From Mycobacterium sp. Root265 (GTDB lineage: Bacteria > Actinomycetota > Actinomycetes > Mycobacteriales > Mycobacteriaceae), in the NCBI RefSeq assembly GCF_001428895.1, contig NZ_LMJA01000005.1:62001-126000 (forward strand): 64,000 nt of DNA. Reading direction: 5' to 3'. How positions within the stretch are numbered: the first letter of the stretch is position 1; each line of letters opens with the position of its first letter. This document shows, piece by piece, positions 18,188-47,742 of the stretch. A program made the translations under genes and the position numbers. A model generated the notes under the pieces. It searched no databases. It saw nothing but the letters and a program-made list of their open reading frames with translations, and was not told the origin of the DNA.

Positions 18188-18250
18188 GGGTGGCAAGTGC
18201 CCACCTCGGAGCGACATCTCAGCGACAAATCGTCTTTGTCGCTCGTTGCC
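18188..18250. repeat. Intergenic hairpin with AGCGACA repeats, related to the 47-kb inverted-repeat arms
   Basis: A 9-bp perfect stem (18221-18229 with 18235-18243, 5-base loop) lies about 75 bp after the kinase/SBP stop. The flank upstream (GTGCCC..CC...AGCGACA...AGCGACAA) matches about 27 of 35 positions of the arms at 47231 and 47690. It may terminate the kinase transcript and seems to be a third copy of a dispersed element. Confidence 0.45.
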
Positions 18251-47230: not shown

Positions 47231-47284
47231 CGAAAAAAGGCGGCACTCGAGTTGCCCGCCTATGCGCGACAACCGAGCGACAAC
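47231..47284 (+). repeat. Left arm of long inverted repeat
   Basis: 54 bp, matching the reverse complement of 47690-47742 at about 50 positions with one indel; a central 24-bp block is identical. Contains two GCGACAAC units. A shared TGGCGCCG word just outside both arms extends the similarity further. Lies 99 bp upstream of recC and 67 bp upstream of the 111-aa gene. Confidence 0.85.
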
Positions 47285-47351
47285 CCGGGTGCGCCAGTTG
47301 CAGCGAGCAGCCTGCGAAGCGGTTGTCGGACTCCTCCGGCATCGTGTCGGC

Positions 47352-47687
47352 ATGAAAGCGGAAGCCTTGATGCGGGTGAAGGGGCTAGATCTGCGCTACC
47401 TGCTGAGCTGGTTGTTGGCCGATTCCGGGTCCGCGACCGTGCCGGAATTGGTGGATCGGCTCGCGATGTACGGATTCGACGTCGACGGCCGACCGTCCAA
47501 GACGGTATCGGATGCCTTGCGGTGGGAGGTGCGGCACGGGCGGGTGCGGCAGCACGGTCGGGGCCTGTATGGGCCGGGGCCGACTCCGCGCGCCACCGAG
47601 TACCGAATACATCAGCGGATCATTCGGCTGCGCGTGCAGGCCGGAACACTGGCGAGCGAGCGGGCAGTGATCTCCGGCTACCTCTGA
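47352..47687 (+). CDS. 111-aa winged-helix-like protein framed by inverted repeats
   Basis: 111 aa from ATG at 47352. Residues 28-74 (TVPELVDRLAMYGFDV..RPSKTVSDALRWEV, R-H-G-R-V-R-Q-H-G-R-G-L-Y) have the spacing of a winged helix with a G-R-G-L-Y wing like AbiEi-type antitoxin HTH domains. The C-terminus (ATEYRIHQRIIRLR) is helical and basic. Similar small proteins with the VKGLDLRYLLSWLL start occur in mycobacteria; none has a known role. Both sides carry arms of a 53/54-bp inverted repeat. It could be a small DNA-binding protein acting on those repeats, or cargo of a minimal mobile element. Confidence 0.72.
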   Translation: MKAEALMRVKGLDLRYLLSWLLADSGSATVPELVDRLAMYGFDVDGRPSKTVSDALRWEVRHGRVRQHGRGLYGPGPTPRATEYRIHQRIIRLRVQAGTLASERAVISGYL

Positions 47688-47689
47688 GC

Positions 47690-47742
47690 GTTGTCGCTGG
47701 GTTGTCGCTCATAGGCGGGCAACTCGAGTGCCGACTTTTTCG
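47690..47742 (-). repeat. Right arm of long inverted repeat
   Basis: 53 bp starting 2 bp after the 111-aa gene stop, opposite in orientation to 47231-47284. Contains two GTTGTCGC units and the identical 24-bp core. It sits 60 bp from the echA3 stop, so it may also act as a transcription barrier. Confidence 0.85.

Follow-up and report, generated by a model that had tools for sequence, protein, structure and literature searches.

A conserved mycobacterial unit of a winged-helix gene and inverted arms, with arm pairs dispersed at helically phased spacing

The window, that is, the whole 64-kb stretch of Mycobacterium sp. Root265 DNA analysed here, contains a gene (47352..47687, plus strand) for a 111-aa winged-helix protein of an unnamed family, which is enclosed by two inverted arms of 51 nt each. 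The left arm (47234..47284, plus strand) carries the core TGCCCGCCTATGCGCGAC at 47253-47270 and, 11 bp inward of it, a second GCGAC unit, and the right arm (47690..47740, minus strand) has its core at 47704-47721 on the minus strand. The arms are 94% inverted-complementary with 405 nt between them, and their match score of 42 compares with a maximum of 14 (2/118) in 118 control windows from related loci, which were scored in the same way over a slightly narrower span, so that a chance inverted repeat is ruled out. The inverted-repeat arms of the original prediction are thus real, and its coordinates agree, with the gene starting 67 bp inside the left arm and stopping 2 bp ahead of the right arm. 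The reading frame of the gene stays open upstream of 47352 (443 aa), and 47352 is taken as the probable start codon on the basis of homologues and of the promoter, a match to the RecA-NDp/PafBC motif at 47323..47345 (plus strand; TTGTCGGAC - 8 nt - CATCGT) that ends 6 nt short of the ATG. By these features, the segment reads as one copy of a conserved unit made up of an outer arm, a leaderless promoter of apparent PafBC type, the winged-helix gene and another outer arm. A scan of the window returned a single additional arm core (TGCCCACCTCGGAGCGAC, 18198..18215, plus strand, 1 mismatch), which has the second GCGAC unit and lies far from the gene.

The flanking genes are presumably recC and echA3, names that are carried over from the original prediction, and they enclose the gene in the window and in five further loci of its clade or genus (L077, L078, L119, L360 and L361). 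In four relatives without the gene at this place, the flanks are separated by ~1.8 to 2.8 kb that hold different open frames, and no clean empty site was found among the relatives compared there. A simple insertion between adjacent recC and echA was rejected on these relatives.

Homologues of the protein are encoded in 174 of 298 genomes of the genus, mostly as a single copy, and profile matches across the order were obtained in 23 of 298 genomes and 2 of 76 genera. Arms were called at 80 homologue loci with named records, the best 80 of 171 relatives, by allowing at most 2 mismatches within 300 bp of the gene. Inward arms were present on both sides at 57 of these loci, on the left only at 14, and on neither side at 9, whereas the background amounted to 22 further arm matches in 520 kb of flank at the same loci. 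At several left-only loci an arm pair lies upstream of the gene instead, and right arm and stop codon overlap at many loci. Gene and arms thus occur together. The original prediction had set against any functional unit the joint finding of arms at many loci without the gene and of the gene without arms; arms do occur gene-free at many loci, but at 71 of the 80 gene loci a core is found left of the gene. Among distant homologues inspected by eye, a compact arm pair adjoins the gene in Nocardia (L121), and in another genus the pair lies upstream in L324 and downstream in L325. At five loci (L118, L120, L085, L088 and L133) the arms are multiplied locally in tandem on one or both sides of the gene, with a spacing of ~84-142 bp, and in L118 the left and right tandem units have sequence in common. 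At L107, on a contig labelled as an Acidobacteria MAG and perhaps mis-binned, the gene lies inside 80-nt inverted repeats.

By comparison of flanks on both strands, the 80 loci fall into 23 neighbourhoods, and the protein tree, in which few branches are well supported, requires 21 changes for 20 neighbourhood labels. Three in-place inversions were seen (L148 and L118 relative to their own group, and L101 relative to L136 and L156), and the inverted block of L148 runs from outer arm to outer arm. Four relocated units were compared with their relatives: in L103 and L086 homology begins at the outer end of the left arm and stops short of or near the stop codon, and in L134 and L093 it is shorter. 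Locus L048 lies in a genome (G235) that has the gene elsewhere; at the place where the G097 locus has the gene, it holds a gene unit with an internal deletion, and so offers a direct way for a gene unit to become a gene-less pair. Target duplications in 31 elements averaged 1.29 against 1.13 (SD 0.24) in permuted sets, which is no significant excess. Of the mobile cassette that was among the original suggestions, what holds is that gene and arms changed place and orientation over evolution; the target-duplication excess that could accompany such a cassette was lacking in the 31 elements. Taken together, the unit would seem to be mobilised, and only rarely.

The arms were also predicted to be copies of a dispersed repeat, which is confirmed by the exact core pattern TGCCCGCCTnnnAGCGACA: 1,267 occurrences in 160 of the 298 genus genomes, 0 to 58 per genome, against 2 matches to a reversed control pattern. 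Cross-tabulation of gene and exact core gave 121 genomes with both, 53 with the gene only, 39 with the arm only and 85 with neither, such that 39 of 160 arm-bearing genomes are without the gene and 53 of 174 gene-bearing genomes are without an exact core. The gene is present in 41 of the 44 genomes with at least 10 exact arms and in 13 of the 14 with at least 20. When nine of the 39 arm-only genomes were searched with the profile, eight gave nothing and one a weak match (E 0.66). Beyond the core, a looser shared outer part of ~45 bp, in which GTCAC is frequent, can be seen by eye. Inward inverted pairs account for the majority of cores in five of six fully listed genomes; in the sixth, G105, 14 of 35 cores are paired at exact match, and 15 of the 19 sites fetched from it belong to one family of ~300-bp elements (L283-L299) that have the pair in their middle, two of the 15 being half copies.

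In the genome from which the window comes, eight cores with 0 or 1 mismatch were counted by eye, two of them beside the gene. In the eight own-genome arms whose surroundings were inspected, the first GCGAC unit is followed 11 bp inward by a second. Counts in this genome were limited to 0 or 1 mismatch because, with 2 mismatches allowed, the reversed control was matched at least as often. The window's doubled core unit, GCGACAACnnAGCGACAAC, was rare, with 5 of 298 genomes having it. Two HNH-type genes of this genome, which we take to be 13E12/DUF222 genes, have an arm upstream (G000:C12 near 46435, L333 and L362; G000:C6 near 62148, L342 and L363). Their HNH motif was found by pattern search, their mutual homology starts within 4 bp of the arm, which is one-sided, and their leaders read TTGTCGGTG-8-TATGTT-6-ATG by eye; one of the two copies has its long open frame in a different register from the ATG of the leader. 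A general link of arms to HNH genes of 13E12 type was rejected, the HNH pattern being confined to this genome among searched loci of mostly 3 kb.

The lengths of the dispersed pairs are periodic. Among 66 pairs of up to 125 bp from the five fully listed genomes other than G105 (one duplicate and one pair longer than 125 bp were dropped), the best period was 11.15 bp (bootstrap 10.6-11.65), and none of 2000 smoothed nulls matched the periodicity, although p values are optimistic because pairs were treated as independent and some are orthologous. Lengths cluster near 58, 69, 80, 91 and 102, whereas an extra cluster at 42-50 bp fits the period poorly and is the reason why the period peaks at 12.2 in a list of 75 pairs with a 72-bp cut-off. 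One orthologous pair set has a length step of 13, and in G105, which was left out, 7 of 7 pairs share one spacing. For comparison, fits to lac looping in cells are given as 11.08 and 11.60 bp per turn in the account of PMC1762422. Arm pairs thus sit at helically phased spacing, as do DNA loops in cells.

Many pairs occupy identical places in different species. Of 16 site groups examined, 15 have at least two paired members, and in 13 of these 15 the pair lengths differ by no more than 2 bp (69/59/46 and 91/69 in the remaining two). Spacers and outer flanks mostly differ between orthologues, as judged by eye, whereas the cores persist; core conservation is in part selected for because sites were picked by exact cores, which leaves the spacer turnover unaffected. 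In two G247/G265 groups, spacers and outer flanks are still alike.

Upstream of the gene, TGTCR starting 28 nt before the start codon, together with A at -11 and T at -7, was found at 60 of 77 starts, a count that rises to 66 of 77 when shifts of the start by up to 3 are tolerated, and at 1 of 12,600 control ATGs. No start was assigned in L100, L112, L152 and L153, and these four of the 80 loci stand outside this count. The RecA-NDp/PafBC motif is described as tTGTCRgtg-8nt-TannnT in PMC5656591, and an alternative form as TGTCGG-10N-TAnnnT in PMC8151990; the family promoters have the same spacing, and the first T of the -10 element is T in only 1 of 73. The short distance from motif to ATG implies a leaderless message. 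The gene is therefore likely to have a leaderless promoter of the PafBC DNA-damage type and would be induced by DNA damage. A leader palindrome acting as operator was ruled out, dyads being no better than in shuffled sequence. Neither the damage-type promoter nor the helical phasing of dispersed pairs figured in the original prediction.

The window protein had no family match in Pfam or NCBIfam, some family members have weak matches to AbiEi_4, DUF3489 and HTH_20, and plasmid and phage records contained no homologue match at the limits used. A search by sequence for a relative of solved structure gave one match (E 1), which was judged not credible. The AlphaFold model has the predicted winged-helix fold together with a long helix, and the predicted fold resembles the PadR, Fur and Pex regulators, a likeness of fold only. 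Purifying selection acts on the protein. It has no catalytic domain, such that movement of the unit would require other enzymes, and no invariant or near-invariant histidine was found in a 72-member alignment. Associations between protein and arm positions are present, but the statistics ignore ancestry and were not used as evidence. On a MAG contig (L117:3989-5476), no stop separates the winged-helix frame from a long downstream frame, into which it continues and which resembles, by eye, an enoyl-CoA hydratase-type protein; L154 looks similar.

We consider it somewhat probable (about 0.55) that these observations reflect a REPtron-like unit that moves rarely and encodes a protein, induced by damage, that binds arm pairs and bridges them. 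On DNA damage, active PafBC would induce the winged-helix protein, which would bind arm cores as double-stranded DNA, and two arms bound on the same side of the helix would be bridged. Bridging would loop the two arms of the gene itself, as a form of self-control, and would join the ends of dispersed pairs, and units and pairs might occasionally move, invert or shorten through host repair or replication enzymes. The product that binds the arms, another of the original suggestions, is thus part of the preferred reading, and each of the three suggestions would hold to some extent. Such a unit would be an analogue of the REP/RAYT pair in which the transposase is replaced by a DNA-binding protein. 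A further-reaching proposal, which we advance tentatively and hold to be on balance doubtful, is a self-spreading DNA-architecture system, in which the damage-induced protein bridges its own dispersed sites, gene and sites spread together with no enzyme of the system's own, and loops have been selected for helical phase over genus-scale time.

A damage-induced regulator of transcription or architecture whose regulon consists of paired operators, the arms being selected looping sites and movement incidental, would also account for the helical spacing, for cores kept at orthologous sites while most spacers turned over, for the likeness of the predicted fold to PadR, Fur and Pex, and for purifying selection on the protein. 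We regard it as rather unlikely, given that crude gene calls at 72 pair sites (29 tandem, 18 convergent, 9 divergent and 16 overlapping a called frame) place only 9 between divergent genes, so that few sit where two promoters meet, that exact copy numbers range from 0 to 58 per genome, and that the G105 sites are for the most part (15/19) copies of one element. It is distinctly improbable that the arms are the ends of an unrelated transposon family with the winged-helix gene as passenger: arms do exist without the gene, and the two HNH-type copies share homology from within 4 bp of their arm, but the link of gene to arms spans 23 neighbourhoods and other genera, the HNH pattern is confined to one genome (loci mostly of 3 kb), no transposase was noticed inside arm pairs in an unsystematic look, and the homologue is absent from plasmid and phage records at the limits used.

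The pairs might instead be RNA hairpins, as terminators or mRNA stabilisers, with the helical spacing accidental. A pair is able to fold back on itself, and at the three variable core bases a comparison across genomes shows more matches within pairs than in permuted sets (z 2.6 to 4.9). When permutation was done inside each genome (pooled p 0.0016), however, an excess was left in G097 only and none in the other four of five, so that an RNA stem at these bases is unsupported in four genomes. The outer arms match barely above permuted pairs (0.37 against 0.35 from 45 to 10 bases out, and 0.38 against 0.32 over the last ten bases), Rfam gave no family at gathering score in 8 loci, and RNA loops have no need of 11-bp phasing. 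We give this explanation very little credence; the lack of a complementarity excess within pairs in four of five genomes leans towards arm cores acting as double-stranded DNA sites, as the bridging reading supposes.

If that reading is true, a REP-like repeat system with a DNA-binding protein rather than a transposase would be tied to the mycobacterial damage response, and an intensively studied genus would be its host. In the natural pairs, whose period agrees with the living-cell value, evolution would have recorded DNA looping, and each pair would be a ready test of helical phasing. A literature search returned no title or abstract opening describing this mycobacterial repeat, and the arm-gene unit was found undescribed in the literature searched.

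MITEs are short gene-less inverted-repeat elements, and the mycobacterial pairs are like them in being short and multi-copy, in having terminal inverted repeats and in including one internally deleted gene unit, but not in target site duplication, of which the 31 elements have no excess. In an unsystematic look, no autonomous element or transposase partner with the same ends was noticed, the arm of the HNH-type genes being one-sided. The 13E12/DUF222-HNH genes, as we take them to be, share the upstream arm and leaders that fit the same promoter motif (two own-genome copies, by eye), but encode a different protein, and among the loci searched their arm link was seen in that genome only. Operator pairs of the lac type, in the account of PMC1762422, likewise place two sites on one helix face at ~11 bp per turn, although lac is one operon and the mycobacterial system comprises dozens of dispersed pairs and a self-framed gene. 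TIRtrons (TIR-associated tyrosine transposases), as presented in PMC3733652, likewise have long terminal inverted repeats that frame the gene and can form moderately abundant families, as the mycobacterial arms do, but they encode a tyrosine transposase, which the mycobacterial unit is without. The closest comparison is with REP/REPIN repeats and RAYT (TnpA-REP) genes, termed REPtrons (PMC3116915, PMC8266576, PMC3733652). In the descriptions given there, as in the mycobacterial unit, a mostly single-copy gene is framed by repeats that are dispersed as inverted doublets. REPtrons, however, encode an IS200/IS605-type transposase with HUH and catalytic tyrosine, where the mycobacterial unit has a predicted winged helix, and REPs have a small palindrome with a GTAG (or CGTC) tag at its end, whereas the arm consensus has no conserved tag. 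In arms, GTAG is confined to cores whose variable bases are CGT; the core is not palindromic by eye, and single arms, unlike REPs, are no palindromes. Membership in REP/RAYT is thus ruled out by the lack of a conserved histidine pair and of the GTAG tag, and, as far as REPtrons are described in those sources, pair spacing that follows the helix and a PafBC-type promoter are features of the mycobacterial unit.
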